Shown one piece after another: positions 13,901 through 37,572 of a stretch of DNA of 64,000 nt (position 1 is its first letter; each line of letters opens with the position of its first letter). The stretch is from a virus, in the IMG/VR virus record IMGVR_UViG_3300010413_000020, positions 43,282-107,281 of that record. The stretch is one strand, 5' to 3'. The notes below the pieces were generated by a model that saw nothing but the letters and a program-made list of their open reading frames with translations, was not told where the DNA came from and searched no databases. Position numbers and translations under genes: made by a program.

Positions 13901-13929
13901 CTGTTCGGTGGGTTTATCTTCGTCGGCAT
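10927..13929 (-). CDS. DNA polymerase I-family replicase with N-terminal UDG-like domain
   Basis: 1000 residues. The C-terminal two-thirds is a family A polymerase: 3'-5' exonuclease motif AIDTETNT (about residue 279) and HNAKFDLKVL, then palm motif A NADAKAAEVRVYA, finger motif B KRVVFGILYGASKN and motif C TVHDSIVFE. The first 230 residues resemble a family 4-type uracil-DNA glycosylase: a Cys cluster (CNLCGPNAWKGSKCSEC), ITESPYLPGPS, a Cys-rich SVRCSVDKPNKRMRSCC stretch and a VIIFPTFS segment near the usual His-Pro motif. The glycosylase activity is inferred and unproven. The start overlaps the primase gene by 59 bases, and GAGGGA precedes the ATG. Confidence 0.93.
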   Translation of the reverse strand: MPTKINPPNRPKTQVTTNGNETSTEFLQCNLCGPNAWKGSKCSECPAYRKEHYAEGIGPTGADYFCITESPYLPGPSADVKNHTTWRYDVEKVILDTFVKYKDTHKRTANLIGRYTSSVRCSVDKPNKRMRSCCYLQFRDEIFKHAKHNDQPIMVFALGPSVVQSFGLKIGKYASVQGKFLETKLGNRPVIIFPTFSKRALLVKTGYYKIFQQHVEMFMDAVYEQQHGKTINTEVPLSELIKDYIFPKKLDDVRKLVEMVVEYAPPGKNPDNHVIAIDTETNTLYPHREKLKILSLVVSWAPGKAASIPIEHPETPWSLADVHPYITQLLQCPKPKGFHNAKFDLKVLQRKGWEVRRFAWDTMLGEHLISEDKRGYYSLKALTKLMIPKYSGYEDQLKTILDSLETKDALKEAAQEKGAAKKLAQDEGFINIPLKDLNEYGAVDADVTRQLITIQRARIEEENKHLAKQRREISKSPYFRNIATPECSSKDPLKDLMFERLIPSSKILADMELYGMAVDQKYIEDLVVDMDESIIMLKIDLFKMIPPNLFDEQFNPNSTAHLRKVLFGAGFYHPETNEIISYNHLTEEELSYTPTGKISTDAKFLRGLVTQQDCPFAKALLKYRGVSKARNTFVENIRALSREDGKMHTSFHIAGTATGRLSSSDENMQNIPKRIGSHNIKKIFIPTNPETQLIVNADAKAAEVRVYAAYSKDPNLIRALNDGMDPHSFFSSMVYNPKSVLQGVRESDKQKVLDTIGIDDVHAWTYEDFQNREQIEKDDPWYGKQLDKLRKNVKRVVFGILYGASKNKISVIVGIPNDQAQAIIDVLFRMFPTIPKYIQLTKDQVHNFGLVETFIGRRRRLDLQGMTRYMVAKAERQAVNFKIQSTSSDIVMGVLCDVDGPIRDMGGHLLITVHDSIVFELPKKYIGQMPDFFKEYGVRRVAKQYPWLPVPFAWDVEVGPSYGELQSVDHYLSEHPVVEFNQEDYDFIEEEIRYDFTNID

Positions 13930-16900: not shown

Positions 16901-17284
16901 TAGGTTTCTACGCTGTGCTTCCAGTTCTGCTAATGCCTTCTTAGGCAAGAAGTTCATTCCGAACTTTTCTCTGAGATGTTGAAATGCTTCTGCTTCAGAA
17001 GCGTCGAGAAAGAGACTAAGAAGCTCTAGGGGATTGGTAATATAATGACCGCACCCGAAACATTTAGCGTAACCCCTACCGGTATAGATGTAGAATGAAG
17101 GGTCTTTGTCATCGTGTTCGGGGTTAACGCAAAGTCCCTTCAGTATGTCTTTCCCCGCGGGAATAAAGTTATGTGAGCGTTTGTAGTTATTGGCTATGTC
17201 TAACCAGTTGTGTGTACCTACTTGCGCCCAAATCTTCCATAACTGATCCCTAGTCAGCCCTTTGTTCTTTTTCTTTGTTGCCAT
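13871..17284 (-). CDS. Primase-helicase fusion
   Basis: About 1137 residues. The N-terminus has a primase zinc finger of CHC2 type (C-x4-H ... CFGC). A TOPRIM-like region follows (YLTEGEIDVLS, later GCKDIDEAI). The C-terminal half has an ATPase/helicase core with Walker A SGDTHSGKTS and an acidic Walker B (LAVLDEFES). It would prime and unwind DNA for the adjacent Pol I. I chose the ATG at 17284 because the product then begins MATKKKNKG; an in-frame GTG at 17326 would lengthen the overlap with the upstream nuclease gene. The acidic C-terminal tail overlaps the polymerase start. Confidence 0.88.
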   Translation of the reverse strand: MATKKKNKGLTRDQLWKIWAQVGTHNWLDIANNYKRSHNFIPAGKDILKGLCVNPEHDDKDPSFYIYTGRGYAKCFGCGHYITNPLELLSLFLDASEAEAFQHLREKFGMNFLPKKALAELEAQRRNLQMKEEIYRVTHDFMCDALADPDKKENQIAKKALDWLINARSIPKDVLHALPVGIMPELTRLQEIMIKRFRRAHKQWENQTNKKSEPQNLADPAFEYLKNYIRDANFAGSVLFPLHVNPKEIGRLKLRAPNNNKPKQISIPDDDFEDLLGLFGLGWDQYRGFVDPKAEVDYAYLTEGEIDVLSTMARFAQAGRARYPLYSVGGRGGAGHIEPILRASGISKAYLIGDAPSAKGNEIVQSWLEKIVKLETRVFVGWDNLIGCKDIDEAIVKLGEPKVSQFIWNKFNDNFTTAWDWAFERASVELDAVAENDYRNLIEKAAEHGKYLKDRLECEAFSEAVASKYNVNPDILRRQIASREESENGFIMRCTDALRELLFVVGTEINAGNRYLVLYDKRNKRFNRVKLDSEQSLKQELAPIVGTLFDFVVEKVGFPSFLELPEQTDGLVRHKLDKQLGYFIREAIQTLARGAPDFMSSRQYRQGYHCIELPTKALVEYLVCGADVFAIRRDGPKVTYEQLEGPSENGIIFDVGIKGNVEEPWYPGGLSIKKLNDGKEADLKKLYDDLVHLYDIGYKFKNQEVTTQLLAALMLVFPIMDAFERPLMLFVSGDTHSGKTSLLSTFSGLGYAGIRLLYASQGTENYTAASVASMCNCDSRLAVLDEFESNNTRTGEEVRKILEMVRGLISGETRRIRGRPDGTHYESILRMPIIFAAIQGAERPQDLNRMLMVEMKKIKGKNNPVNVILHEFGQTRIEEMAHEVTTAMFPHAITLAQYEKEIRREAHELQATLPFTVEWRYASSLFSAAAVMKLLGLDWKTFFRKYIISNESTILRATTISESESYLGSMLYNPVIYQRETNINVSVANLLVSPEKRAEINTSACGIYFDEEKELLLMLLDQAVPRLLPSQLKTYGMSGSRLRDTLERHRAALSPKEVQQSNILRKVGPYLGAGIKLQDVVVFRAKEWLDSAQEALDDTVKAAQEGMATNAETVSEGTHADEDKPTEQAKDASDHEW

Positions 17285-18068
17285 TGGTACCATCCGCATG
17301 TGCCGGACATATTCGTTGGTAGTCACACCAACCGCATAGAGGTCCTGGCCGCACCAAACTGTGTTTGTGAGCTTCGACAGTTGCTTCGTTAAGAAATTTT
17401 GTTATGTCTTCGAAGATAGGCTGAACGTCCCTCACGTCCTGCAACTTCTTAACGAATTCTATGGTATCTTCTTTCAAAAAATTAATACCCGTTTGAATGC
17501 GTTCCAATTCAGGCAAATGCGCCTTCAATAGAAGAGTATACGCATTGAACTGGGATTTAAAATAATTTAGAGCTCGGTACTTACCCGTTTTGTGGTCAAG
17601 GATTATTGCGTCATTTGTGCCTTTAAACGTCATATACAAATCAATAACTCCGCGCAAAAACCCATTGTTGTTAAAAAATTCAATAGGATTTCCATCAAAA
17701 TCTATTCCAAACCGTTGTTCCATCTTGGGCGCATTAGCATTATGCCGAGTACAATAAGCATTAAACTTCCGCAGGAAATTATAGGCGGCTGGTCTTAATG
17801 CCAGAGCTCTTTCTATTTCATTGGAAGTTAAATTGAATTCTTCAATTGCAAATTTAAACGCGGCGTCAACGGGGCGACCACAAAGAGCAAACTCTACCGC
17901 ACGGTGTACTGCTTGTCCTATGAGAGCATCAGCATTTGGAGGTAAATCCATCTTCTTTTTGGTGATATATTGAAGATAGAATTTGTGGGGGCACTGCTTG
18001 GCGGTATCAGCTTTACTGATTGACCAAGGAGCGTGTTCTTTGACAAATGTTGTGGGTTTAATTGTCAT
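17250..18068 (-). CDS. RecB/Cas4-like PD-(D/E)XK nuclease (copy 1)
   Basis: 272 residues. It begins WSISKADTAKQCPHKFYLQY, typical of Cas4/RecB-type nucleases, continues with a nuclease core (AIILDHKTGKY, matching D-x-K) and ends with a Cys cluster (CGWCDYQRIC). Together with the early Cys this could hold an iron-sulfur cluster as in Cas4 and AddB. It probably processes DNA ends during replication or recombination. It overlaps the primase gene by about 35 bases. Confidence 0.85.
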   Translation of the reverse strand: MTIKPTTFVKEHAPWSISKADTAKQCPHKFYLQYITKKKMDLPPNADALIGQAVHRAVEFALCGRPVDAAFKFAIEEFNLTSNEIERALALRPAAYNFLRKFNAYCTRHNANAPKMEQRFGIDFDGNPIEFFNNNGFLRGVIDLYMTFKGTNDAIILDHKTGKYRALNYFKSQFNAYTLLLKAHLPELERIQTGINFLKEDTIEFVKKLQDVRDVQPIFEDITKFLNEATVEAHKHSLVRPGPLCGWCDYQRICPAHADGTNGNKEKEQRAD

Positions 18069-18097
18069 TGGGTCACTCCTATATAGGGAGGAGAGAA

Positions 18098-18115
18098 AGG
18101 GGGATTATTCCCCCT
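18098..18115 (-). terminator. Hairpin after the candidate SSB gene
   Basis: A 7-bp stem AGGGGGA/TCCCCCT with a four-base loop, 22 bases beyond the minus-strand gene that ends at 18138. On the minus strand it is followed by TTTCTCTCC, a weak T-tract. It may reduce read-through into the nuclease gene. Confidence 0.5.
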
Positions 18116-18137
18116 AACTCCCTCGCTATTGTCTTAC

Positions 18138-19181
18138 TTAAACGTTGGCTTCGTCGTCTGGGGCATCTCCCATATCACCGTAATCAGGACCACCTTTTGC
18201 GTCGTCCTCGGTGATAAGGCCTGCCGAACCTCCGCCGTCACCTTCGTTTTTGGGACCACCATTATCATCCAGAGCTTCTTTAGCTTGGCGATAAACAGAG
18301 GCTATTCCCGGAATTACATGAGTATATTCCAGCATGGAACACATTAGATCACAGAAAGGATGCAGTTCTTCAGGAACAAGTTCTTCCTCGGGCTCAACTA
18401 CCATCACATACCATCTTCGATTTCTGTCGGCAGTGTTAGTCTTGGCTTCTGCAGTTATGCGGTACCATTTAGCCCAGTTATCTGTAGAACGTTTAACAAA
18501 TTTCAACAATTGCTTTCCTGCAGGTTCCGAAGTTTTCTGGAAACGCACTAGGACTATATCTTCCAGATTTTTGGAAAGCATGAATGCAACAACATCGTTT
18601 GCACACTTTTGTTTTTGTCCGTCTTTCCAAGGACGATGAGGACAACTTTCGCATTCACCATAAGTCGAACCCATTTTCCTATCCATGCTGTTGCAAATGG
18701 GCATGCGCACGCTATCACCGGCATCTGCATCTCCCCACATAGTTCGACCCGCCCAAAGTGCAACAACCGTACCTTCAAATTCGGGTCCAACATTTTCTTT
18801 TGTTGTTAGATAATAATGGCCAGGTATTTGATTTTCAGGACGATTCGGGTCATTTCCTGTTCCGTGATAAATACGCAATTCAGGAAAGTCCGGACGTCCA
18901 TCGGCATCGTAAACGCCTTTTCGTTTACCGGAAGCCCTTCTAATGATTTCGCTGATTCCATCCGCCATTTCATCGGGGAGATCATCTAAAACTTTTTGGA
19001 GGTCATGTGATGTTGGGAGAGCTGACGCTACACGTTCAACATCTTTAGCATAACGTTCCATAAAAAGTTCATTGTTGTATCCCAGCGTAGCTGCAAGAGA
19101 TGTTTCTTCGGGTTTATCTAATGCAGTTTCAGTGGATGTAGTTGTTTCTTCCGTATTGGATTTCTCTTTCTTTTGTCCCAT
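18138..19181 (-). CDS. Unknown replication-region protein, possible ssDNA-binding protein
   Basis: 347 residues. The middle has a Cys cluster (CNSMDRK ... CESCPHRPW ... KCAND) that suggests bound zinc. The last 45 residues are a flexible Gly/Asp-rich acidic tail ending in DAPDDEANV, as in many single-stranded-DNA-binding proteins. Its place among polymerase, primase and nuclease genes supports that role, but no OB-fold signature is evident, so the function is inference. A strong AAGGAGG site precedes the ATG at 19181. Confidence 0.7.
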   Translation of the reverse strand: MGQKKEKSNTEETTTSTETALDKPEETSLAATLGYNNELFMERYAKDVERVASALPTSHDLQKVLDDLPDEMADGISEIIRRASGKRKGVYDADGRPDFPELRIYHGTGNDPNRPENQIPGHYYLTTKENVGPEFEGTVVALWAGRTMWGDADAGDSVRMPICNSMDRKMGSTYGECESCPHRPWKDGQKQKCANDVVAFMLSKNLEDIVLVRFQKTSEPAGKQLLKFVKRSTDNWAKWYRITAEAKTNTADRNRRWYVMVVEPEEELVPEELHPFCDLMCSMLEYTHVIPGIASVYRQAKEALDDNGGPKNEGDGGGSAGLITEDDAKGGPDYGDMGDAPDDEANV

Positions 19182-19289
19182 AAAAGCCTCCTTTATTGTG
19201 TGGGTTTGGGGGGCAAGAGGAAATACTACGTCAAACTACTTGCGTTGTCCATGATTTTTATTTAAATGTAATATTAAAGGAGATTTACA

Positions 19290-20306
19290 ATGCAGGATTA
19301 TTTTACCGATAAAATTTACCAACTCTATTATGATGAAGTTGGAAAACATCCAATCCTATCACCTACCGAAGAACGGGACTTATTACTTCGCTATCACAAT
19401 TGTTCAGGTTGCAAACGGCGATTACCTTCCCGTATTGCAGTTAAGAACTGCCCCGCTTGCGGTACTGTTGTACCTTCCCATATTTCTGGCAAAGATTACA
19501 CCTGCGAAAATTGTGACCACAAGTTTGATACCCATATGGCTCCGCGAATATGCCCATATTGTGGATCTCCTAGAGATTTGGAGGCTCGACAAAAGCTTGT
19601 CGAATCTAATCTCCGTTTTGTCATTCGACGTGCCAAGAGTATCACAACTAAACCAGAACACTTAAGAAAGTTAGTATCTGCGGGCAATGTAGGATTAATG
19701 CTTGCAATAGATAAATTCAGTCTTGAACGTCAGACGCGATTTTTGACTTATGCTGAATGGTGGATACGTAAAGAAATGTTTGATGAAATACATTCATCTA
19801 GTTTCATTCACGTACCCACACATCGTCAAAAATCATTACGCCGAGAACAGAAAGAAGGAAAATACATTTGTAAACATTGTGGCCTACGTACTGATGATCC
19901 TGACTCACGAGAACATTGGACAGGTTGTACTGACATAGACCATGAATTTATTCTTCCATTAAATAATGATTCAGCGGTTTTAAATGATGCAGTTTCATTA
20001 GACGATGTTACCTTAGTTGATACTTCCAATGTAGAAAATCTTGCAATTGATTCTGACGCACAAGAACATTTACATGCGGCAATACAGGACATGACATTAA
20101 GTGAGCGTGATCGATTTATTATCATGGGATACTTTAATGTACCACTTCCTGATAGAAAATCGGAACCTAAAAGCTTACATCAATTAGCTGCATTGACTGG
20201 AATTACTCCAGAACGCGTCCGTCAAATCAAAGAAGAAACACTGAAAGTATTGCGAAAAGAATTAAAAAGGCGGGCAATAGAGGGGGTGGATGAAGTTTGT
20301 ATTTAA
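19290..20306 (+). CDS. Sigma-70-family factor with inserted zinc ribbons
   Basis: 338 residues. Region 2 is clear (EARQKLVESNLRFVIRRAK, then SAGNVGLMLAIDKF and FLTYAEWWIRKEM), and region 4 ends with an HTH (LAALTGITPERVRQIKEETLKVLRK). Four CxxC pairs (C38/C41, C54/C57, C72/C75, C88/C91) sit between the N-terminal helix and region 2.1. A further Cys/His set (C194, C197, C213, H218) lies after region 2. It is expressed from the opposite strand to its neighbours, with AAAGGAG before the ATG. It probably directs RNA polymerase to phage promoters. Confidence 0.9.
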   Translation: MQDYFTDKIYQLYYDEVGKHPILSPTEERDLLLRYHNCSGCKRRLPSRIAVKNCPACGTVVPSHISGKDYTCENCDHKFDTHMAPRICPYCGSPRDLEARQKLVESNLRFVIRRAKSITTKPEHLRKLVSAGNVGLMLAIDKFSLERQTRFLTYAEWWIRKEMFDEIHSSSFIHVPTHRQKSLRREQKEGKYICKHCGLRTDDPDSREHWTGCTDIDHEFILPLNNDSAVLNDAVSLDDVTLVDTSNVENLAIDSDAQEHLHAAIQDMTLSERDRFIIMGYFNVPLPDRKSEPKSLHQLAALTGITPERVRQIKEETLKVLRKELKRRAIEGVDEVCI

Positions 20307-21233
20307 CTACTCTTCGACAATAAGGCCGGATGCAATCTCGAAACCTTCGAGAACACCTTGATAGAATTCCCGCTTACGTGAGCTGCTGGTATTTTGAAGT
20401 TTTTCTCCATAATATTCCATCCACTCTAACGCCTTATCTTTGGAAATCATCTTAACCAGTTTTCGAACGTCTGGGTCAGCATAGTCAGTAATTTGAATTT
20501 TTGGTCCTGGTTTCTTTTTACTACCGCCGCCAGCTTTGGCTTCTTTCTTCTTACCTTTCTCTGCACTTCCTTTGCTGGCTCCTCCGGCGGTAGGTTTCGG
20601 TGCTGCTTTAGCTTTCCGGTCTACGAAGATATCTATTTTGTCTCCGATGTCTTGGGCAGTCATACCCTGTAGGGCGTATTCCACCATTTTATCGTAGAAG
20701 ACTTTATCCTCTTCGTAGTCCAAACGCGCAAAGTGGCGCACCATGGACAGAGGGATTTTACCGAGCTTCAACGCATTCTGTAATTTCTTGTGAATGCGTT
20801 GTGCCGCTAAGTGTTGGCTTACATAACCTTCGCTAACACCACACCCGTTGGCGATTTCTTTGACGGTTATCTTATTATCCACACACTTTTGAAACCCGCA
20901 AGAAATTTCCCAAGGGTTATTGTCCTCTCGAGCCAGATTGGCGATTAGGGATGTGAGAAATGCATCGCTATCATCTTTCTCCTCTGAGTAGGAGATAATA
21001 GCTTCTTTAACTCCCGCCTCTTGTAACGCAGCGTACCTGCGGCGACCATCAACGAGAATGACCTTGTTTGCATCTGTTGGATGGTTACGCACCGTTATTG
21101 CGACTTTTTGTCCTTTGGTTTTGATAGAAGAGACTAAGCCCTTGATGTCCCCAAGTTTCTCTCGGTTCCAATCCTCGGGCAACACAATGTTCTTGAGATC
21201 GATTGTTAGATTCTTGCTTTTTACTTCCGCCAT
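20307..21233 (-). CDS. ParB/Spo0J-like DNA-binding protein
   Basis: 308 residues. The N-terminal ParB-type domain shows VDGRRRYAALQEAG and the ANLAREDNNPWE segment. An HTH follows (ITVKEIANGCGVSEGYVSQHLAAQRIH). A Lys/Gly/Ala-rich linker (about 210-240) then leads to a C-terminal helical region. No ParA partner is in the window. It could act in genome partitioning, in transcription control or as a nuclease-type ParB. It converges on the sigma gene with no gap. Confidence 0.85.
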   Translation of the reverse strand: MAEVKSKNLTIDLKNIVLPEDWNREKLGDIKGLVSSIKTKGQKVAITVRNHPTDANKVILVDGRRRYAALQEAGVKEAIISYSEEKDDSDAFLTSLIANLAREDNNPWEISCGFQKCVDNKITVKEIANGCGVSEGYVSQHLAAQRIHKKLQNALKLGKIPLSMVRHFARLDYEEDKVFYDKMVEYALQGMTAQDIGDKIDIFVDRKAKAAPKPTAGGASKGSAEKGKKKEAKAGGGSKKKPGPKIQITDYADPDVRKLVKMISKDKALEWMEYYGEKLQNTSSSRKREFYQGVLEGFEIASGLIVEE

Positions 21234-21244
21234 AGGGTTTCCTT

Positions 21245-21556
21245 TCAGCTCATTTCTTCGTATTCACGAAGAAACTTTTCTTTGTTAATACGATGCAGAC
21301 TCAACTCTTCGGGTCTAGCACCTTCGAGAACTTCTCCATAAACATGAAATAATTCTGTGGTTAAGGGGATAATACTCTCTTCGTTGTTGTAAACCATAAT
21401 GTAGAGCGTACGCATTATACGCACTTTTTCTTCATCTGTAGTAGCTTCGCGTAAACGAGAGTTTACTCGTCTTCGAAGGGTTTTGTGCCGCACTGCGGAC
21501 AAATCGCTACTCCTGTTTCTTCTTGTGCTTGAAGTGGTGTTTTGCAATTCGGGCAC
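21245..21556 (-). CDS. Small unknown protein starting inside a zinc-ribbon gene
   Basis: 103 residues from a GTG at 21556 with AAGGAG eight bases upstream. The N-terminus is Arg-rich and the rest helical; no family is recognised. The first 94 bases overlap the 3' part of the small zinc-ribbon gene (21463-21621) in another frame, so either the genes overlap or the true start lies further in. Confidence 0.6.
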   Translation of the reverse strand: MPELQNTTSSTRRNRSSDLSAVRHKTLRRRVNSRLREATTDEEKVRIMRTLYIMVYNNEESIIPLTTELFHVYGEVLEGARPEELSLHRINKEKFLREYEEMS

Positions 21557-21621
21557 TTTCCTGTCTCCTTTGCTTCAGCTACCTTTTCTTCTGTGTTTTC
21601 AACAACGCCATATTTTTCCAT
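21463..21621 (-). CDS. 52-residue zinc-ribbon protein
   Basis: The sequence begins MEKYGVVENTEEK. It has two CxxC knuckles, CPNC (23-26) and CPQC (41-44), spaced as in a zinc ribbon, and an acidic end. It lies directly after the 135-residue gene with an AGGAGGTG Shine-Dalgarno before its ATG. The function is unknown; zinc ribbons of this size often bind nucleic acid or a polymerase. Confidence 0.7.
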   Translation of the reverse strand: MEKYGVVENTEEKVAEAKETGKCPNCKTPLQAQEETGVAICPQCGTKPFEDE

Positions 21622-21623
21622 TT

Positions 21624-22031
21624 TTACTGTTCACCTCCTTCACTGGTCTCTGCGCCCTTTTTACTCCCTTTATCTTTTTTATTATTCTTTTTCTTGGGTT
21701 GTGCAACTGGTCGAGGATTCTCCATGAAAATTTCTTTCATGAGAACTTCAACTCGTGCTTTGCACCCTTTACGTTTGGCTTCAGGATTATCACAGAGTTC
21801 ATTTAACATGCGAACTCTAAAATCCCCTTTATTCACTTGTTGAATGAGAACAAAATCGGGGGCCAAATCATGCATTTCCATCAGGAGATTAGCTAGATTT
21901 GTTTTTAGTGAATCTTGCGCGGTTTCTCGTTCTTTGTTAACCGCCTCCATTTCCTGTGCTTGCTCGAGAGAGACACGCACTTCTTCTTTTTTGAGACATC
22001 TACTGCATTGGGTTTCGACTGTTACTTCCAT
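21624..22031 (-). CDS. Unknown small protein with N-terminal CxxC and basic tail
   Basis: 135 residues. It has a CSRC knuckle near residue 9, a central helical part with two more Cys, and a Lys/Asn-rich C-terminus. The basic tail suggests nucleic-acid binding. It ends two bases before the start of the small zinc-ribbon gene. Confidence 0.65.
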   Translation of the reverse strand: MEVTVETQCSRCLKKEEVRVSLEQAQEMEAVNKERETAQDSLKTNLANLLMEMHDLAPDFVLIQQVNKGDFRVRMLNELCDNPEAKRKGCKARVEVLMKEIFMENPRPVAQPKKKNNKKDKGSKKGAETSEGGEQ

Positions 22032-22046
22032 TACTCACTCCTCTTT

Positions 22047-23234
22047 CTATTTTTGAAGTCTTTGGCAGGTAGCAGGACCTGCGATTCCATCTACTTTGAT
22101 TAGGTCAGAAGGATGCGTTTTATTCCAGTCTCTTTGGAACGAAGTTATGGCTTGGCGCGTCTGTGGCCCCATCTTTCCATCAACCTTTACATTGTAACCT
22201 TTTCGCGCCAATGCTTGTTGTACATCATCGGTATCAAAGAACCCGTCATCCTCAGCGTCAACATCATCATCGTGTGTGGGTGTTAAATTACCGTATTCAG
22301 GATTATTCGATTCATCGTGGGTATCCCAGCCATCTACTTCGTCCCAAATCGTACCTTCTTCATCAAGGAAATCTTCATATTGTTGGATGAAATCCATTTC
22401 AGGAAGGGGATCAAGAGAAAACATAGCTTCGTTAATATCATCGAAAGGCCAAATAGGACCCATGTCTGTCTTACCCCCACGCCAGTCACTGTGTTGACTC
22501 ATGCGCTCGGGAGCTAATCGCTCTCCAAGCGCTGCCAAAGAGACTCGCTTGAGGGTAAGGTTATTTAGAAGCTGTTCCTTTGTAAAAGGTTGCATTACTT
22601 TAACTCCCCTATATGCCTTATCCAGCATAACGGGTGGGAGTTCTTGTACCAGCGTAAGGGGTAATTGTTTGGCCCAATAATGCCAATTATCTCCTTCTCG
22701 GTGTAGCGCCCCGGCATTTACCATTTCGATGCTTATGGAATCTTTATTCCTGCGAGGTTCATGCCAAGCGCCATGCATTAATGGGATGATATAGAACGGA
22801 AGGTCATGGTACCCACATACGAAATGTGTGCTGGCACCATTGAATTTTTTCTTTCCATCTTTTCCTGTTTTGGTTTTATTTGCGCTAAACCAATTCAGAG
22901 TAGACCATTTTGAAATGCCTGCTGTAAAATGATCCGTCCACCAAAGATTTTCAAGTTTAGCTAACCTATTTTTAGTTAACTGTTTTGTAGGATAAAATTG
23001 CGCGAGGGATTTACTATGGTCCAAAATTCGTGCATGTGAATGAATAAACAGACAATTAAGAAGAAGAAATGCCTCGCTTTGAGTTAATTCTTCTTCTTGT
23101 GCTTTGGGCCAATACTCGTCGCAAATATCTTTAGCAGCGTCTCGGGCATCATTTACATATTCCCAAAACTTTTTATCTGACATTACGGTGAAGTCTTCGA
23201 GTTTTTTGAATAGCGCTTTGTCTATATCTTTCAT
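22047..23234 (-). CDS. Endolysin: N-acetylmuramoyl-L-alanine amidase with peptidoglycan-binding domain
   Basis: 395 residues. The amidase_2-type core has DHFTAG (first zinc His, about residue 101), STHFVCGYHD, AWHEPRRNKDSISIEMVNAG and the second metal region QHSDWRGGKTDMGP. It would cut the amide bond between MurNAc and the stem peptide. An acidic linker leads to a C-terminal peptidoglycan-binding domain (VQQALARKGYNVKVDGKMGPQTRQAI), truncated relative to a double repeat. There is no signal peptide, so release presumably needs a holin; none is certain nearby. It overlaps the upstream nuclease gene by four bases. Confidence 0.87.
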   Translation of the reverse strand: MKDIDKALFKKLEDFTVMSDKKFWEYVNDARDAAKDICDEYWPKAQEEELTQSEAFLLLNCLFIHSHARILDHSKSLAQFYPTKQLTKNRLAKLENLWWTDHFTAGISKWSTLNWFSANKTKTGKDGKKKFNGASTHFVCGYHDLPFYIIPLMHGAWHEPRRNKDSISIEMVNAGALHREGDNWHYWAKQLPLTLVQELPPVMLDKAYRGVKVMQPFTKEQLLNNLTLKRVSLAALGERLAPERMSQHSDWRGGKTDMGPIWPFDDINEAMFSLDPLPEMDFIQQYEDFLDEEGTIWDEVDGWDTHDESNNPEYGNLTPTHDDDVDAEDDGFFDTDDVQQALARKGYNVKVDGKMGPQTRQAITSFQRDWNKTHPSDLIKVDGIAGPATCQRLQK

Positions 23235-29154: not shown

Positions 29155-32100
29155 ATGGCGGAAGAATTAACGCCGGTATTGGTTAGCGCAGAAACTCGAC
29201 GGGATGATATACGAAACAAGGTATTATCCGGACTTCAAGAAGCTTTTCCGATTAAATCGCGAAGTAAAACTTTAGAATTAGCCGATCTCAAAATGGATAG
29301 TAAAGAATTTTCTCCGACAGAGCAAAAAATGGCTATTCTCCGAGGTGATACTCTTTCCGAGAGTGTAAGGGGTACTGTGCGGATGCGGGACAAGGACGGA
29401 AAATTAGTCGATGAAGTTAAAAATTTTACAGTTGCCCGAGTACCTTGGTTTACTCCTAGACATACTCTCATAGTAGGAGGTAACGAATATTCTGTATCGA
29501 ATCAGATACGCCCTAAACCGGGGGTGTATGCTCGCAAACGAGCCAACGGAATTTTAGAGGCTAGTTTTAATACTCGAGGAGGTAGCAACTTTAATGTGAG
29601 TATGGACCCGGCCCAAGGAGTGCCGCGGTTGGAATATGGTTCTACTAAAATTCCTCTCTACCCAATACTTCGACAAGCCGGTATACCCCATTCCCGAATA
29701 GCTGAAAAATGGGGACCACGATTAGCAGATAAGAATGCAGAACAATTAACTAAGCTCACAGACAAATCCGTTCAGACGCTCTATAAAAAAGTAGTTCCGG
29801 AGTATCAACAAAGTGGAGGAGCTTCAACTTCTCAGAAAACAAAAGAGATTTTTGAAAAATACTTACGATCTCATATGGACCCAGAAGTAAATCAACGAAC
29901 TCTTGGTAAACCTTATGCCAGTGTAACTCCAGACAGTCTACTTGATGCCTCACATAAAGTGCTAAAGATTTTCAAGAATCCTACAGATGTAGATGATAGA
30001 GATAATTTAGATTTTAAAGCGCTACATTCAATCGATGATTTTTTTAAAGAAGTGATAACTCTAAATGCTCGGGATGTAGCACGTAAGACTGCTATTAAAA
30101 TGGAGGTTTCACCGTCGTTACGAAAGGCACTTCCTTCGGGTCCTTTTACTCCGGGTCTCATTCGTTTTATAAATAGTTCACAACTTGTTGCTGTTCCAAC
30201 TCAGACTAATCCTATTGAATTAGTAGATTCAGCTATGCGCGTAACTGCTCTGGGGGAAGGAGGTATTTCATCTGATCGTGCAATTCCGATGGAAGCTAGA
30301 CAGGTTCATCCTACACAAATAGGGGCACTAGATCCCTTTCGTACTCCCGAGTCTTTTAGAGCAGGTATTGATGTTAGGGCTGCGATGGCCGTTAGACGCG
30401 ATAAGCAGGGCAATATTTTTGTTCCAGTTTATGATGCTAAAGCTAAACGTAAACGTTACGTGCGTGCTGGAGAAATGCAAACAGAAGTTGTGGCTTTTCC
30501 TAATCAGCCATTACGTGGGCAAGTGGATGCATTAGTTGGTGGTGAGTTGCGAAAAGTTCCTGCCAAGCAAGTGCGTTATCAGATACCACACCCTTCATTA
30601 ATGTATGGCCCAACTACTAACTTAGTTCCTTTTATGGAATCGCAACAGGGTAATCGTACAGTTATGGGTTCCAAAATGCAGGTACAGGCCCTACCTTTAA
30701 TTTATCGGGAAGCACCGTTAATACAAGTACAGAGTCCTCGCAAAGAATCTTTTGAACAGTTAATGGCTAGTATTGTTAATCCGACTACTCCTGTTGCTGG
30801 TACTGTAGCAAAAGTAGATGATGATTTTGTTTACATTCGACCTGATGAAGAAAAAACAAGTGCTCGAGGTGGTACTTTAATTAAAGTTCCTTACGAACAA
30901 AATTTTCCTCTGGCGGCTAAGACACACTTACATCACGAAGTTACTGTTAAAGAGGGTGACCGAGTTCGTTCAGGACAACAGGTAGCCCAATCTAATTTCA
31001 CGAAAGATGGAACCTTAGCCTTGGGTAAAAATCTTAGTGTCGCTTATATGCCTTATTACGGGGCTAATTCTAATGACGCCGTAGTTATTAGTGATGCTGC
31101 ATCTAAGAAACTGACTTCGGAACGAATGTATAAGATGGTTGTTCCGCGGGATAATGATTTGATATTTAACCGAACCAAACACAAGGTTTATTATGGGCAA
31201 AACTACGACAAGAAATTTTATGACACGTTAGACTCCGATGGAGTGATTCGTCCAGGAACTAAGCTAGAACCCGGTGATCCGCTTTTTTTAGGATTACGTA
31301 AATCTCAACTTACTTCCGATGATTTGCTTCTCGGACGTTTACATAAATCCCTAGCACGACCTTTTAGAGAAAATTCACACACATGGGATCATGACTATCC
31401 AGGGGAAGTAGTTGATGTTGTTAAGACACCCAAACGTATTGCCTTTACTGTTCGAACGCAGGAACCGATGGGTGTAGGGGATAAGCTAGCAGGACGTTAT
31501 GGAAATAAAGGTGTTGTTTCCATGGTGATTCCCGATGACCAAATGGTTCAGGACGAAGCCGGAAAACCTATAGATGTTATTATGACATCTGCCGGGGTAG
31601 TTTCTCGTGCAAATCCTGCACAAATTATCGAAACAGCAGTTGGCAAGGTTGCTGAAAAAACCGGAAAACCTATTTTAGTTGAAAGTCTTTCTGGTCGAAA
31701 TAATGTACAGTGGGCTAAAGACCTTCTGAAAAAACATAATTTAAAAGACAAAGAAACTGTTTTTGATCCAGTTGCAGGAAAGAAAATTCCTAATGTTTTT
31801 GTAGGACGACAATACATTCTGAAATTGATGAAATCCACAGATACTAATTACAGTGCTAGAGGACTTGGTAATTACGATGTAAATCAACAACCAACTAAAG
31901 GAGGAGTACACAGTGCTAAGGCTCTGGGTAAGATGGAGTTCGATGCTCTTATAGGGCACAATGCTCGGAATATTCTTAGAGAAGCGGCGACTTTAAAAAG
32001 CCAAAAAAATGATGAGTGGTGGAGAGCGCTTCAGTTAGGTTATCCTACTCCTCCTCCTAAAGCTTCTTTTGCCTATGATAAATTTTTGAACATGTTAACT

Positions 32101-33510
32101 GGAGCAGGAGTTAGGGTTCATCGAGAGAGTAACCGCCTTTCGTTAGCCCCGCTTACTGATAAAGACGTTGTTTCTATGTCTGCGGGAGAAATCGAAGAAC
32201 CTAAATTAATTAGAGCTAAAGATCTAAAGCCTGAAAGAGGGGGACTTTTCGATGTTGCCAAAACGGGAGGAATGACAGGAAAAAAATGGAGCCATGTAGA
32301 CCTTGCGGAACCTATCGTTAATCCGGTATTTCGTGAACCCGTTCGGCGCTTTTTGGGAATGACCAATCCGCAGCTAGACGAAACTTTAAAAACTAAAGGG
32401 GGAGTGTTTGTTAAACGTGAATTGTCCAAAATTGATTTGGATGCAAAAGAAAAAGCAATTCTTAAAGGTCTTCAAAAGAAAACAGGAGATAATCTCCAGG
32501 GAGATGTTAAACAAATAAAGTATATACGAGCGCTTAAAGCCCAAGGGCTTACGCCCGATAAAGCCTATATCGTTTCTAAAGTTCCAGTGTTACCTCCTGT
32601 TTTTCGTCCTATTCTCCCCGGTAAAGGAGGTCAGGAAATCATCTACGGAGATATTAATCCACTTTACCGGGATCTAATTTACGTGAATAACCAATTCAAA
32701 GAAGTAAAGAAAACAAAATTATTACCTGGCGAAGAAGAAAATTTGCGCCCAACACTCAACCAAGCTGTGGGAGCTGTTTATGGGGTTAATGATCCGGTAA
32801 CGGCTAAATCAAAAGCTCGAAGTCACAAAGGCTTTCTAACGTATATTTCTGGAACAAACTCTCCTAAAACAGGGTATTTTCACCAAAAGCTTATGCGGCG
32901 TACCCAAGACATGGCGGGCCGAGGAACTATCGTTCCGGATAGCACTTTAGGAATGGACGAAGTGGGTGTGCCTGAAGATATGCTCTGGACTATGTATGAA
33001 AAAACTCTCATCAGTAATTTAGTCCGGAATGGCTATTCGGCTCTGCAAGCCAACAAAATGGTGAAGGACCGGCATCCTGCTGCACAAATCCAGTTACAGA
33101 AAGAAGTTCAATCTCGTCCAGTAATTATCAATCGAGCTCCTACACTTCATAGATATAGTATGGTGGCCGCATATCCTAAGCCGGTGCCCGGTAAAACAAT
33201 CCGGGTTAACCCTTTTGTAGAAGAGGGTATGAACGCAGACTACGATGGAGACACCATGATGTTGCATGTGCCAGTAGGGTCAAGTGCGATTGAAGAAGCT
33301 CGAGGTATGACTCTTTCTAACCTTTTGTACAGTGATAAATCTAAACAAGATCTCTTGGTCTTTCCTCAACACGAGGCCATAATGGGAATTGCTCACGCTT
33401 CTTCTTTGGATGAGAAGAATAAACCAGTAAAATTTAAGAACTCGGGAGATGCAATGAAAGCATATCGTGAGGGTAAAATTAGTTTAGGAACACGAGTCCA
33501 AATTGGATAA
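29155..33510 (+). CDS. RNA polymerase: beta subunit fused to the N-terminal part of beta'
   Basis: 1451 residues. Beta landmarks in order: VPWFTPRHTLIVGGNEYSVSNQI (about 95), the fork region VTALGEGGISSDRA with VHPTQIGALDPFRTPE (about 360-400), GSKMQVQALPL, YMPYYGANSNDAVVISD, RYGNKGVVSMVIP and QQPTKGGVHS. Beta' landmarks follow without a break: GLFDVAKTGG, PVLPPVFRPI, SRPVIINRAPTLHR and the catalytic loop NADYDGDTMMLHVP (about 1360), whose three Asp residues would bind the active-site magnesium. The usual N-terminal zinc finger of beta' is absent. GGAGG precedes the ATG. The rest of beta' is encoded at 35770. Confidence 0.93.
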   Translation: MAEELTPVLVSAETRRDDIRNKVLSGLQEAFPIKSRSKTLELADLKMDSKEFSPTEQKMAILRGDTLSESVRGTVRMRDKDGKLVDEVKNFTVARVPWFTPRHTLIVGGNEYSVSNQIRPKPGVYARKRANGILEASFNTRGGSNFNVSMDPAQGVPRLEYGSTKIPLYPILRQAGIPHSRIAEKWGPRLADKNAEQLTKLTDKSVQTLYKKVVPEYQQSGGASTSQKTKEIFEKYLRSHMDPEVNQRTLGKPYASVTPDSLLDASHKVLKIFKNPTDVDDRDNLDFKALHSIDDFFKEVITLNARDVARKTAIKMEVSPSLRKALPSGPFTPGLIRFINSSQLVAVPTQTNPIELVDSAMRVTALGEGGISSDRAIPMEARQVHPTQIGALDPFRTPESFRAGIDVRAAMAVRRDKQGNIFVPVYDAKAKRKRYVRAGEMQTEVVAFPNQPLRGQVDALVGGELRKVPAKQVRYQIPHPSLMYGPTTNLVPFMESQQGNRTVMGSKMQVQALPLIYREAPLIQVQSPRKESFEQLMASIVNPTTPVAGTVAKVDDDFVYIRPDEEKTSARGGTLIKVPYEQNFPLAAKTHLHHEVTVKEGDRVRSGQQVAQSNFTKDGTLALGKNLSVAYMPYYGANSNDAVVISDAASKKLTSERMYKMVVPRDNDLIFNRTKHKVYYGQNYDKKFYDTLDSDGVIRPGTKLEPGDPLFLGLRKSQLTSDDLLLGRLHKSLARPFRENSHTWDHDYPGEVVDVVKTPKRIAFTVRTQEPMGVGDKLAGRYGNKGVVSMVIPDDQMVQDEAGKPIDVIMTSAGVVSRANPAQIIETAVGKVAEKTGKPILVESLSGRNNVQWAKDLLKKHNLKDKETVFDPVAGKKIPNVFVGRQYILKLMKSTDTNYSARGLGNYDVNQQPTKGGVHSAKALGKMEFDALIGHNARNILREAATLKSQKNDEWWRALQLGYPTPPPKASFAYDKFLNMLTGAGVRVHRESNRLSLAPLTDKDVVSMSAGEIEEPKLIRAKDLKPERGGLFDVAKTGGMTGKKWSHVDLAEPIVNPVFREPVRRFLGMTNPQLDETLKTKGGVFVKRELSKIDLDAKEKAILKGLQKKTGDNLQGDVKQIKYIRALKAQGLTPDKAYIVSKVPVLPPVFRPILPGKGGQEIIYGDINPLYRDLIYVNNQFKEVKKTKLLPGEEENLRPTLNQAVGAVYGVNDPVTAKSKARSHKGFLTYISGTNSPKTGYFHQKLMRRTQDMAGRGTIVPDSTLGMDEVGVPEDMLWTMYEKTLISNLVRNGYSALQANKMVKDRHPAAQIQLQKEVQSRPVIINRAPTLHRYSMVAAYPKPVPGKTIRVNPFVEEGMNADYDGDTMMLHVPVGSSAIEEARGMTLSNLLYSDKSKQDLLVFPQHEAIMGIAHASSLDEKNKPVKFKNSGDAMKAYREGKISLGTRVQIG

Positions 33511-33516
33511 TCGATT

Positions 33517-33864
33517 ATGAAAAAGACTGCACAAGAAATAGCAAGCGATGTTGTAAACAATCTAGAGAACACGTCACCGTTAGATGCTGCAACCAAAGAA
33601 CATAAACGCCAATATTTTGCTAAAATGGACCCGCACACTTATGCCGGACTGAGTTTAGGTGGCGCTTTGGGGATACTTCCACTCCTTTCTCAAAATGTCC
33701 GAAATACAGGAATATTGGCAGGAATATATCCTTTGGTTGGGGGTGGGTTAGGTGCATTGAGCGGTCGAGTTGTAGGGCGGCATTTGGTTGGTCCATATCA
33801 AAAACCTACACTAGAAGAACTACAGCAAATTATGTTGGCAAAAGAAAGAGAAAAAAATGATTAA
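33517..33864 (+). CDS. Small glycine-zipper membrane-like protein
   Basis: 115 residues starting MKKTAQEIAS. A hydrophobic Gly-rich central part (GLSLGGALGILPLL, then GIYPLVGGGLGALSG) could form two membrane helices. It carries the K-T-A motif shared by many proteins here. It lies between the two RNA polymerase genes and overlaps the next gene by eight bases. The function is unknown; Gly-zipper proteins of this kind can act in membrane penetration or head packing. Confidence 0.65.
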   Translation: MKKTAQEIASDVVNNLENTSPLDAATKEHKRQYFAKMDPHTYAGLSLGGALGILPLLSQNVRNTGILAGIYPLVGGGLGALSGRVVGRHLVGPYQKPTLEELQQIMLAKEREKND

Positions 33865-34216
33865 AACAGCAGCCCAGCCAGCATATCAACGATGGCAACA
33901 AAAATGTGCGATGGACGTTGACGAAGAAAGAGAACATATTCGAAATTTATTAACCGGAGGTCTTGCTGGCGCAGTAGACCCCTTAGTTGCCGGTATTGCC
34001 GCTTCAGCTTCTAAACCTACGGGTGATCCAACTCAACAATTTTGGGGAACACTTGGAGGGTCACTTGGAGGTAAGATAGTAGGTGGCGGAATTGGACGTT
34101 TAGCTGGAAAACCAGGAACGATTCTTGGACTTCTTTTGGGAGGAGGTGGAGGCGGTTATGCCGCACAGCGGTTAATGGCACATCACCGAAAAGAAATGGA
34201 ACCTGAAGAAGATTAA
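33857..34216 (+). CDS. Second small glycine-zipper protein
   Basis: 119 residues starting MIKTAAQ. The second half is a Gly-rich hydrophobic stretch (GGSLGGKIVGGGIGRLAG ... ILGLLLGGGGGGYAAQ) and the last residues are acidic. It resembles its upstream neighbour in layout (K-T-A start, Gly zipper), so the two may be distant paralogues. Confidence 0.65.
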   Translation: MIKTAAQPAYQRWQQKCAMDVDEEREHIRNLLTGGLAGAVDPLVAGIAASASKPTGDPTQQFWGTLGGSLGGKIVGGGIGRLAGKPGTILGLLLGGGGGGYAAQRLMAHHRKEMEPEED

Positions 34217-34231
34217 GGTTTGTCTTAACGT

Positions 34232-35770
34232 ATGCCATATTCATCTCCAGCACAACGCGCTGCTATTTGGGCCAATCGCAAACGTCAAGAGGTTCAACCA
34301 TCTCGACATGACATAGCTGAATATTATACCGACCCTCAAGTACGACAAGAAATACTTTCGCAACTTCGAAATCGTCCCGTAATGGCAATACAGTCTCTTC
34401 CGTCTGGTCAAAAAATAGTTCGAAGAAATCTTTCAACAGGTGACCCCATACAAATAACTAAAGCGGATTTCAGCGGGGGCGAATCCGATTTAGGCTGGTA
34501 TACTGATAGGCGTTTTGCGGAATTCCACCCAGTTATAGGTACTCGAACGGATAAAGTTTGGGTAGATATTGATCCTGGGCCTAATCGAAGTACTGAAAGT
34601 TTAAAACCATTAGTACGAAAAGTTGTAGACTCCGTTAATCAAATGTCTAATGTACAGGATGTACAGCTTGCTTATTCTGGAGGACGCGGATTTCACGTCC
34701 GAGGTATACTCAAAAAACCAGAAGATACTGATTCTATGCGAGTACGTTTGACTGAGCAGCTCAAAAGAGATTTTCCCGAGGAGGATGTTGTCTTTCAAAA
34801 GCCAAAGGGAAAACAAGTGCGTTTAGATACGTCTACGCTGAAACGTATGGGATCTATCCGGGCACTTCGGTCCATTAACGTAGATACTGGACGCGTGGCG
34901 CTACCTCTTTCATTACAAGAGTTGGATTCATTTAATCCTTCTGATGCTGCTTTAAAGACAATTTTAAAATCTCGGGAGATAGCTCCAGGAATTCCTCAAT
35001 CTCAACGAATTCACGCACTTCCCGATAAACCCAAGAAGCCGCAATGGACGCTAGCAATCCAAGAACACGATGCTAAACGTGCAGGTAAACACTGGGATTT
35101 GCGTTTAGTGGACCCACATACTGGATTTGCACATTCTTGGGCAGTACCAAAAGCACAGTTTCCTACCGCTAAACCATTGTTGGCTATTCAAACTCCCACA
35201 CATACTTCTGACTATGCGTTGAATTTTGGAGGGAAAGGGCCACAGGAAATTGGTGAAGGTTATGGCAAAGGAACTGTAGAGATTAAATATAAAGAACCAG
35301 TAAAGGTGGTTTCTTCTAGTCCTGACAAGATAAAATTCCAGCGTATAATTAATGGGGATGCGCAAGAGTATATGCTCTTCAGAACAAAAGATAATTCATG
35401 GCTTATTAGGAATATAAAGGGACAGGAAAAGAAAGGTGCGGCTATACCCATGAACCATATTTTTAAATTTGGATATTTTGATACATTAGTCAAATTGGGG
35501 ATAGCTAAGGGTAAAATGCCGGAACCTTCTATTAGTGAAATGCAACAACCTCTTGATAATACTGACATGAATACTCCTGTAGGAATGTTAGCGGACCTTA
35601 TGCAGCAATTGCCGGATGATAATTTCGATTCACGTTCACGAAAACCACAACACCAGAGTGCCGAAGATAGGCTTAATAGGGACGTTTCATGGAGCAGTCC
35701 AACGGATATACCATATAGCCAAATGGATGGTCCCACTCCCTGGGTTACATTACCCGGAGGCACACCCTGA
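34232..35770 (+). CDS. LigD-like protein: primase/polymerase domain plus 3'-phosphoesterase domain, no ligase
   Basis: 512 residues. Residues about 100-230 resemble the archaeo-eukaryotic primase fold of LigD: VWVDIDPGPN (two metal Asp, 112 and 114), SGGRGFHV (149-156) and the late SIRALRSINVDTGRVALPL segment. Residues about 270-355 match the LigD phosphoesterase domain: QEHDAKRAGKHWDLRL, SWAVPK, and GEGYGKGTVEI. No ATP-dependent ligase motif (KxDG) is present. The C-terminal 130 residues are Pro/Gln-rich and unassigned. In bacteria these domains process ends in non-homologous end joining. The last base of its stop is the first base of the next start. Confidence 0.78.
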   Translation: MPYSSPAQRAAIWANRKRQEVQPSRHDIAEYYTDPQVRQEILSQLRNRPVMAIQSLPSGQKIVRRNLSTGDPIQITKADFSGGESDLGWYTDRRFAEFHPVIGTRTDKVWVDIDPGPNRSTESLKPLVRKVVDSVNQMSNVQDVQLAYSGGRGFHVRGILKKPEDTDSMRVRLTEQLKRDFPEEDVVFQKPKGKQVRLDTSTLKRMGSIRALRSINVDTGRVALPLSLQELDSFNPSDAALKTILKSREIAPGIPQSQRIHALPDKPKKPQWTLAIQEHDAKRAGKHWDLRLVDPHTGFAHSWAVPKAQFPTAKPLLAIQTPTHTSDYALNFGGKGPQEIGEGYGKGTVEIKYKEPVKVVSSSPDKIKFQRIINGDAQEYMLFRTKDNSWLIRNIKGQEKKGAAIPMNHIFKFGYFDTLVKLGIAKGKMPEPSISEMQQPLDNTDMNTPVGMLADLMQQLPDDNFDSRSRKPQHQSAEDRLNRDVSWSSPTDIPYSQMDGPTPWVTLPGGTP

Positions 35771-37572
35771 TGGCGGGAACACAAACATTTGGCAAATATT
35801 TGATAAATCAAAATTTGCCTTCCAATTATTCTGTTCAAGAAGAAATGGGTAAACAAAATTTTAAAGAACAGATGAATAGACTGGCTAGAGAAAATCCTAA
35901 TCAGTATGTAGAAACAATTTCGAAATTAAAAAGATTGGGAGATGAGTTAGCAACTACTGAAGGTCTCTCAATTGGCTTAGATGATATTGCACCGAATTAT
36001 AAAGAGCGAGATAAGATTTTAGCGCCTCTCCAGAAAAAATTTAATTTAGCGGGTTCGGATGACCGTAAACGTGCAATTGTAGAGGAAGCTCAAGAAAAAT
36101 TAGTAAATCATGCAATGCAGCACAAGGGTTCCTTAACACTTCAGGTTAAAAGTGGAGCTCGAGGTAAGCCAGTGCAATATGGAATGATTGTTAGTGGTTT
36201 AGGTTATGCTCGAGATCCTATGAATGGAAAATCGGTTCCGTGGTTGATTGGTAAGTCATTTGCAGAAGGTTTGAAACCGTCAGACTACTGGGCGCAAACC
36301 GGGCAATCTGTCATGGATGTCGTTCGAACATACACTGCAATTTCAGAACCCGGAGAGTTGTCTAAGAAACTTATAAGCTCTATGACGGACCTTGTTGTCA
36401 CAGAAGATGATTGTGGAACATCGAATGGTATTTTAATGGATGCTACTTCACCAGATGCAGTGGACAGATACTTGGCTAAAGATGTAGGTCCATTTAAAAG
36501 AAATCTTCTTATTACTCCAACAATACAACCTAAATTAGCGAGAACAGCCAAACAGATATTGGTACGTTCACCAATGACTTGTGAAGCAGCTGATGGTGTT
36601 TGTCAAAAATGCCAAGGACTGGACGAAAAAGGTTCTCCCCATCCTTTAGGTGTCAATGTAGGGGTGCGTGCGGCTCAGGCCATGGCCGAACCGCTGACAC
36701 AATTTGCCCTCAATGCAAAACACGGCGGAAGAACATTAAAATCCGATAAGTTTCAAGTTCATGGAATTTCAGGTTTTCGACAAATCATTGAGACTCCGCG
36801 GCAGTTTGTTAATAAAGCTACACTTGCGAATCGCACAGGTAAAGTAACAAAGATAGAGGAAGCTCCGCAAGGGGGTTACAATGTAAATATCGAAAATGAT
36901 GTGCATTATATTCCTCCTAATTTGGGGCTTAAAGTCAAACGAGGACAGACCGTTGAAACAGGAGATGTTTTAAGCGAAGGAATTCCTAAGCCTGATGAAG
37001 TTGTTCGTTACCGAGGACTTGGAGCAGGACGTTTATATATGGTAGACGTTCTCAAGAATCTATATAAAGGGCAAGGCAAAGATTTAGACCAACGACATTT
37101 TGAACTCTTGGCGAAAAGTGGGATGAATCATGTACGTATTATGAATGACCCTTCTCATAGATTTATTAAGGGCGATATTGTGAATTACAATACTCTTCGT
37201 GCAGAGTTAAGTAGAGAAGCTAGAGAGAAAGATTTAAAAGAAGCTCTCGGAGATACCCTTGGAAAAGAATATTATCAATTTGCCGTAGGTACTCGAATTA
37301 CTCCTCGAATAGCAAATGAGTTGAATAAACAAAATGTTAAAAAAGTTATGGTTGCTCCTAGGGCTCCTGAAGTAACTTTTGTTATGAAGCCTGCTACAAC
37401 AATTCCTAAATTGAATCCTGATTGGATGGCAAGATTGTCACACCAAGGATTGAAGTCTTCAATTCTTCAAGCGGCACACACAGGTGAAATTGCCAATATT
37501 CATGGAGTTCATCCTGTTCCTGCGTATGTATATGGAGTAGAATTTGGACAAGGTACTAAGGGACGTTACTAA
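35770..37572 (+). CDS. RNA polymerase beta' subunit, C-terminal part
   Basis: 600 residues. DLVVTEDDCGTSNGI (about 211) and MTCEAADGVCQKCQG give the four Cys of the second beta' zinc site. VGVRAAQAMAEPLTQFALNAKHGGRT is the trigger-loop region. The C-terminal SHQGLKSSILQAAHTGEIANI matches the end of beta'. It must assemble with the 29155-33510 product to form an active core. No alpha or omega subunit is visible. The split falls after the catalytic loop. Confidence 0.92.
   Translation: MAGTQTFGKYLINQNLPSNYSVQEEMGKQNFKEQMNRLARENPNQYVETISKLKRLGDELATTEGLSIGLDDIAPNYKERDKILAPLQKKFNLAGSDDRKRAIVEEAQEKLVNHAMQHKGSLTLQVKSGARGKPVQYGMIVSGLGYARDPMNGKSVPWLIGKSFAEGLKPSDYWAQTGQSVMDVVRTYTAISEPGELSKKLISSMTDLVVTEDDCGTSNGILMDATSPDAVDRYLAKDVGPFKRNLLITPTIQPKLARTAKQILVRSPMTCEAADGVCQKCQGLDEKGSPHPLGVNVGVRAAQAMAEPLTQFALNAKHGGRTLKSDKFQVHGISGFRQIIETPRQFVNKATLANRTGKVTKIEEAPQGGYNVNIENDVHYIPPNLGLKVKRGQTVETGDVLSEGIPKPDEVVRYRGLGAGRLYMVDVLKNLYKGQGKDLDQRHFELLAKSGMNHVRIMNDPSHRFIKGDIVNYNTLRAELSREAREKDLKEALGDTLGKEYYQFAVGTRITPRIANELNKQNVKKVMVAPRAPEVTFVMKPATTIPKLNPDWMARLSHQGLKSSILQAAHTGEIANIHGVHPVPAYVYGVEFGQGTKGRY

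Follow-up and report, generated by a model that had tools for sequence, protein, structure and literature searches.

The phage gene at positions 34232 to 35770 (plus strand) encodes a LigD-type enzyme of 512 aa in which a primase-polymerase domain (Pol) is followed by a 3'-phosphoesterase domain (PE) and from which the ligase domain is missing. This is a known kind of enzyme in a new setting, a phage Pol-PE encoded within a split RNA polymerase. LigD-type enzymes function in bacterial and archaeal break repair, and host NHEJ is required by some mycobacteriophages. LigD Pol domains favor rNTPs, and LigD PE domains remove 3' ribonucleotides. A phage-encoded Pol-PE is not described in the open-access literature that we searched. 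Our preferred interpretation, to which we assign a probability of roughly 0.45, is that Pol-PE is a Ku-independent LigD-type enzyme that processes DNA ends and gaps, is packaged together with the virion RNA polymerase, and repairs the phage DNA as it enters, with a host ligase doing the sealing. The window referred to below is the whole stretch of 64,000 nucleotides that was analyzed, which comes from a source record that is itself a 107-kb fragment.

Domain structure of the Pol-PE protein

The open reading frame is real, and profiles, AlphaFold, and PDB folds agree on the layout of its product, which is an AEP primase-polymerase domain, a PE domain, and a tail of ~110 aa that is predicted to be disordered. 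The AEP domain (residues 25 to 248, positions 34304 to 34975) is defined by motifs I to IV, profile, model, and fold; the PE domain (residues 268 to 396, positions 35033 to 35419) by profile, active-site residues, model, and fold; and the tail (residues 404 to 512, positions 35441 to 35767) by the model and by a separate gene in sister phages. All are on the plus strand. In Pfam searches, LigD_Prim-Pol (PF21686) matches residues 26 to 246 with an E value of 2.8e-10, which exceeds the curated cut-off. LigD_N (PF13298), the PE family, matches residues 277 to 351 with an E value of 7.7e-7 and a score of 29.7 bits, below the cut-off of 31.1, which is passed by the relatives L058 (50.1 bits) and L069 (39.3 bits). 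Sequence and profile searches of the PDB lead from the PE domain to archaeal PE structures (sequence search against the Korarchaeum PE structure 3p4h, E value of 3e-8) and from the Pol domain to Mtb and Pae LigD.

An AlphaFold model built from 23 sequences has pLDDT values mostly of 83 to 97 across Pol and PE and a disordered tail. With Foldseek, the modeled Pol domain matches Prim-PolC, the Pol domains of Mtb and Pae LigD, and the Methanocella NHEJ Pol with E values of 1e-9 to 1e-11, and its best PDB fold match is Prim-PolC of Mycobacterium smegmatis. The PE domain matches archaeal LigD-PE structures at 5e-7, with a TM score of 0.83 by target length for 3p4h. Neither Pfam nor the fold search detects a ligase domain in the protein, no PHROGs family matches it, and among the predicted viral structures of BFVD the best matches are only remote AEP-type proteins, with no clear match to PE. 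Based on the profiles, the model, and the fold comparisons, we conclude that this protein is a LigD-type Pol-PE enzyme without a ligase domain. The first-pass annotation, which had read motifs of both LigD domains in one protein with the ligase domain missing, was therefore correct on each of these points, and structure prediction gives the primase-polymerase and phosphoesterase folds that it implied.

Catalytic residues and family placement of the Pol domain

Six PE residues (H279, H287, D289, R291, H324, and Y328) are invariant among 23 homologues and make up a His-His-Asp metal triad and an Arg-His-Tyr phosphate site, roles described in PMC8656161. That paper names H42, H48, D50, R52, H84, and Y88 in Pae PE, which correspond to these six, and D137, D139, S172, H178, and R244 in Mtb LigD Pol. 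The motifs of the phage Pol domain are D112-x-D114 (motif I), S149 and H155 (motif II), D199 (motif III), and R210 and N216 (motif IV). D112, D114, S149, and D199 are invariant in the same 23 homologues, so the metal-binding residues are retained in both domains. H155 is replaced by Tyr in 11 of the 23, scattered over several branches of the tree. R210 is kept in all 23 and N216 in 21, and their six-residue spacing matches that of R231 and N237 in PolpTN2. In the alignment with Mtb LigD, these two positions are occupied by Ile and Arg244. The position of R210 is judged from the alignment and not from an AEP-wide tree.

The stated hallmarks of the PrimPol-PV1 supergroup are an Arg in motif IV, part of the flange, and less strict conservation of the motif II His, and the LigD AEPs are said to be without this Arg (PMC5862659). 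The same work reports Tyr or Gln in place of the motif II His in other AEP families, including PolpTN2 (Gln), which is active. As judged by profile and predicted fold, then, the Pol domain is LigD/Prim-PolC-like, and because of R210/N216 and the relaxed motif II His it appears PrimPol-PV1-like at the diagnostic positions. The label of LigD polymerase given in the first-pass annotation fits the nearest profile and fold but not these two positions. Mean identity across the homologues is higher in PE (0.55) than in Pol (0.44). Comparisons of close pairs, Tyr-type pairs included, indicate strong purifying selection on both domains, with synonymous sites that are often saturated.

The Pol-PE gene lies inside a split RNA polymerase beta' gene

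The first RNA polymerase ORF (29155 to 33510, plus strand) is a fusion of beta and the N-terminal part of beta' (Rpb2 plus Rpb1 domains 1 and 2), with the sequence NADYDGD near its end, and the second (35770 to 37572, plus strand) is the C-terminal part of beta'. Since the first ORF carries Rpb1 domains 1 and 2 and the second carries the remainder, the sequence places the Pol-PE gene inside a split beta'. The gene had been described as lying between two halves of the polymerase, which it does, except that the break falls within beta' rather than between beta and beta'. The one-base coupling to beta' that had also been reported is present as TGATG at 35768 to 35772, in which the Pol-PE stop and the beta' start overlap. 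The slot between the two RNA polymerase ORFs also contains two small Gly-rich hydrophobic ORFs that belong to no family (33517 to 33864 and 33857 to 34216, both plus strand). Such Gly-rich hydrophobic segments are separate ORFs in the window (33517 to 34216) and are fused to PE proteins in L064 (5485 to 7509) and L071 (5971 to 7089).

Elsewhere, the window encodes a GpA-type terminase, a sigma factor, a family A DNA polymerase, an SNF2 helicase, a ParB-like protein, and an amidase. A candidate primase of the DnaG type with a CHC2 zinc finger (13871 to 17326, minus strand) lies beside the phage's DNA polymerase gene; its match to PF01807 has an E value of 2.5e-5, slightly below the cut-off, and one member of the window protein set matches the DNA primase family phrog_47. 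The window also encodes a reverse-transcriptase-like domain (RVT_1, E value of 8e-14), probably at 1551 to 2723 on the minus strand, where the ORF likely to carry it has a YCDD motif. Outside the window, the source record encodes UDG, class II RNR, dNMP kinase, RuvC, and others. That part of the record (L002 to L004) also encodes a protein that strongly matches an ice-binding beta-roll family (LbR_Ice_bind, E value of 1e-33).

Relatives that carry Pol-PE

A search of viral contigs with the single Pol-PE protein found nothing, and relatives were retrieved with the RNA polymerase beta as query and then with an alignment of Pol-PE homologues. The beta query gave 24 loci, retrieved irrespective of Pol-PE. 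Among them, every locus whose slot is complete and whose beta is at least 61% identical carries Pol-PE in that slot, except L023. The alignment query gave 44 loci, on contigs that partly overlap the beta-query set. Altogether, Pol-PE is present in 27 other phage contigs, of which one is truncated and some are near-identical to one another; L005 has only a truncated start of Pol-PE. The gene is downstream of beta in all 27 and is mostly joined to beta and beta' by a 4-base or 1-base overlap or with no gap. A scan of genome contigs with the same alignment detected no relative, and therefore no cellular donor was identified.

In L023, all that is left is a 141-aa ORF corresponding to the end of PE and the tail. 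In this locus (16875 to 22592), Pol and most of PE are gone, and the slot is occupied by an SNF2-type helicase, a DUF5662 protein, and others. Since L023 has lost the enzyme yet keeps the tail, its sequence suggests that the enzyme is dispensable in some relatives and that the tail can persist after enzyme loss. Separately, the beta genes of L010, L013, L016, L017, L019, L021, L023, L059, L063, and L068 have in-frame inserts of ~290 to 510 codons. Two catalytic motifs are affected, with inserts lying after GDKL (residue 779 of the window beta) and at NADYDGD (residue ~1367). The inserts after GDKL begin with CYTxDTEVLT or similar, and by sequence these beta-gene inserts look like inteins.

Slot proteins and the tail in sister phages

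In a sister clade with beta ~50% identical (L060 to L068 and L071/72), the protein encoded in the slot has PE but no detectable Pol; the N-terminal part of the L063 protein was searched for a Pol domain and none was found. In L060 to L066, the same protein continues after PE into an ATP-dependent DNA ligase domain. An alignment of ten PE-ligase proteins shows no variation in ligase motif I (K-x-D-G) or in further motif residues, and the predicted ligase fold matches those of DNA ligases from archaea, T4, and humans. In L069, the slot protein combines Pol and PE with a P-loop kinase-like domain between them, and across the sister slots the partners of PE vary among ligase, GNAT, C39 peptidase, and P-loop kinase. 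PE or PE-ligase lies outside the slot in L070 and L073 to L076. On the contig of L028 (G012; beta 36% identical), there is a PE-domain match at 31133 to 31501, also outside the RNA polymerase slot. Because the slot holds PE-ligase and, in L069, Pol with a P-loop kinase and PE, we take its modules to be ones that heal and seal DNA ends. Extra regions with YHGT/YHY motifs and no Pfam match occur in L067 (5002 to 7401), L068 (5980 to 7272), and L069 (3349 to 6444); one of them is common to L067 and L069 (32% identity), and these regions may be ADP-ribosyltransferase-like.

The tail of Pol-PE corresponds to a separate gene of ~100 aa directly upstream of beta' in L061 to L068 and L071/72. A homologue of the tail was sought in the phages Arash and D69 and in L057/L058 and was not found. 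We considered whether a short motif early in the tail might be a general packaging signal and dropped the idea, as the motif is near the start of only two other window ORFs.

Ku, ligases, and UDG

No Ku (PF02735) was found in the source record, 27 related IMG/VR records, and two cultured relatives, a total of 30 records of which many are fragments. ATP-dependent ligase (PF01068) was not found in any Pol-PE record, including contigs of 179, 173, 170, and 144 kb, and neither NAD ligase nor RNA ligase of PF09414 was detected in the Pol-PE records searched for them. Most records being fragments, these absences are informative mainly for the contigs of near-genome length (relatives of 144 to 179 kb were checked). 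The earlier observation that neither Ku nor a separate ligase is seen, made on the window, thus extends to its relatives that carry Pol-PE. UDG is present in 15 of 17 related records. In G002, G003, G015, G018, and G020 to G024, the UDG matches lie within open frames of ~900 to 1170 aa, which perhaps represent UDG fused to a larger replication protein.

Similarity to an RNA polymerase detected in Arash virions

The window beta is 36% identical over its full length to gp206 of Salmonella phage Arash. Proteomics of Arash virions gave more spectra for beta (gp206) than for any other protein and placed beta' (gp216) among the top five, and UDG and DNA ligase are also detected (PMC10585845). Two proteins encoded between Arash beta and beta', gp210 and gp213, are detected in virions as well (proteome, PMC10585845). 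The authors of that study caution that carry-over could explain abundant enzymes in virion preparations (PMC10585845). Pol-PE is absent throughout the genomes of Arash and D69, each of which encodes a separate ATP-dependent ligase; by BLAST, these ligases have no clear kinship to the slot ligases. Its homology with the Arash enzyme makes the window RNA polymerase a probable virion RNA polymerase. This homology, the coupling of the Pol-PE gene to the genes of the split polymerase, and the tail, which matches a sister protein encoded beside beta', suggest that Pol-PE is probably packaged with it and that the two most likely travel together.

Discussion

In the model that we favor, Pol-PE would enter the cell with the virion RNA polymerase and repair the incoming DNA before or during the first transcription. 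PE would strip 3'-phosphates and 3'-terminal ribonucleotides to give a clean 3'-OH, the AEP domain would then fill short gaps, probably with rNTPs, and the nick would be sealed by a ligase from another source, the host being the most likely one, whereas the sister phages would supply their own. The enzyme activity, the packaging, the substrate, and the host ligase are all things that we infer. Several observations weigh against the model, namely the lack of Pol-PE in Arash, the carry-over that its authors consider, the missing motif II His in about half of the homologues, and the loss of the enzyme in L023. Like mycobacterial Prim-PolC/LigC, Pol-PE would act on nicks and short gaps and so would not need Ku. 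Since Ku is missing and UDG is common, such a pathway would be closer to Prim-PolC/LigC excision repair than to classical NHEJ. A wider proposal, which we hold only tentatively, is that Pol-PE belongs to a Ku-free modular repair set (Pol-PE, PE-ligase, or Pol-kinase-PE, exchanged at one locus) that is packaged with RNA polymerase, enters together with the genome, and would mend it during first transcription.

Comparison with known systems shows how Pol-PE resembles and differs from each. Like M. tuberculosis LigD (Pol-PE-Lig), it has Pol before PE, the PE residues, Pol motifs I to III, and the fold. In contrast to that protein, it has neither a ligase domain nor a Ku partner, a tail takes the place of the ligase, motif IV has Arg plus Asn, and the gene lies within a split RNA polymerase. 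In the mycobacterial LigC complex, Prim-PolC fills gaps of 1 to 3 nt using rNTPs (PMC5663958). It is the best Pol fold match, and Ku-independent short-gap repair with rNTPs is the mode that we propose for Pol-PE as well; however, Prim-PolC has no PE, is encoded with its partner LigC, and is only ~21% identical. The stand-alone archaeal LigD-type PE proteins (3p4h and 3p43) share the PE fold, the active-site residues, and ~32% identity, but they are single-domain cellular proteins with no AEP fusion. With the PrimPol-PV1 supergroup (PolpTN2 and PrimHYQ), the phage domain shares the motif IV Arg, the Asn six residues on, and His/Tyr in motif II, although it is nearer to LigD and Prim-PolC in Pfam and fold searches and the PV1 enzymes serve in replication and are often combined with helicases. 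Arash and Vibrio phage D69 have the same split RNA polymerase (~36% identity over the full length) but lack Pol-PE and have a separate ATP-dependent ligase. Mycobacteriophages Omega and Corndog also use an NHEJ-type pathway (PMC8068969), but these rely on host LigD, while here the Pol-PE is phage encoded and there is no Ku.

The first-pass annotation had suggested that the enzyme seals or cleans genome ends, circularizes the genome, or acts as a primase. A repair role remains plausible. Circularization could occur, although nothing favors it over repair of nicks and gaps. If Pol-PE were a phage-supplied part of NHEJ, it would trim and fill the termini after injection, and host Ku and ligase would join the ends. 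Its domains are those of NHEJ LigD, Omega and Corndog are recircularized via NHEJ proteins (PMC8068969), and sister phages supply PE-ligase. We nevertheless consider this unlikely, given that Ku was found in none of the 30 records, that the slot enzymes are often without Pol, and that neither genome ends nor a Ku-bearing host provides evidence for it. A little less likely again is a counter-defense role, in which an enzyme either made in the cell or injected, perhaps acting after entry and not present in the virion, would repair phage DNA in which host nucleases have produced breaks and 3'-blocked ends. The modular sister slot proteins with their varied partners do resemble injected polyvalent proteins (PMC5512222) in joining disparate domains, but no defense system or matching lesion was identified, and the late-type location of the gene is ill suited to a purely early intracellular role.

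The replacement of H155 by Tyr on several branches, the greater conservation of PE, and the many sister proteins that retain PE without Pol would all fit a degenerate Pol that serves as a DNA-binding scaffold while only PE, or only the tail, works. We think this improbable, since all three metal-binding aspartates are kept in every homologue, purifying selection acts on Pol even in Tyr-type pairs, and Tyr or Gln occurs at this position in other AEP families, with PolpTN2 (Gln) being active (PMC5862659). We give slightly less credence to work on RNA, that is, processing of the 3' ends of transcripts or R-loop RNA or extension of primers made by the RNA polymerase. The coupling of the gene to RNA polymerase, the rNTP preference of LigD Pol, and the removal of 3' ribonucleotides by LigD PE are consistent with such work, but sister slot proteins are fused to ligases whose fold best matches DNA ligases. 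A role as the replicative primase of the phage is very improbable. AEP enzymes are primases in many phages (PMC5862659), but this phage already has a CHC2/DnaG-type primase beside its DNA polymerase, sister slots often keep PE without Pol, and the gene is grouped with RNA polymerase and not with replication genes.

The slot, by exchanging Pol, PE, ligase, and kinase modules, provides a natural series of repair-enzyme variants. If the wider proposal is true, Pol-PE would be part of a virion-delivered repair machine coupled to transcription, and if the enzyme is packaged with RNA polymerase, it would offer a way to study how a large phage protects its incoming DNA before phage protein synthesis.
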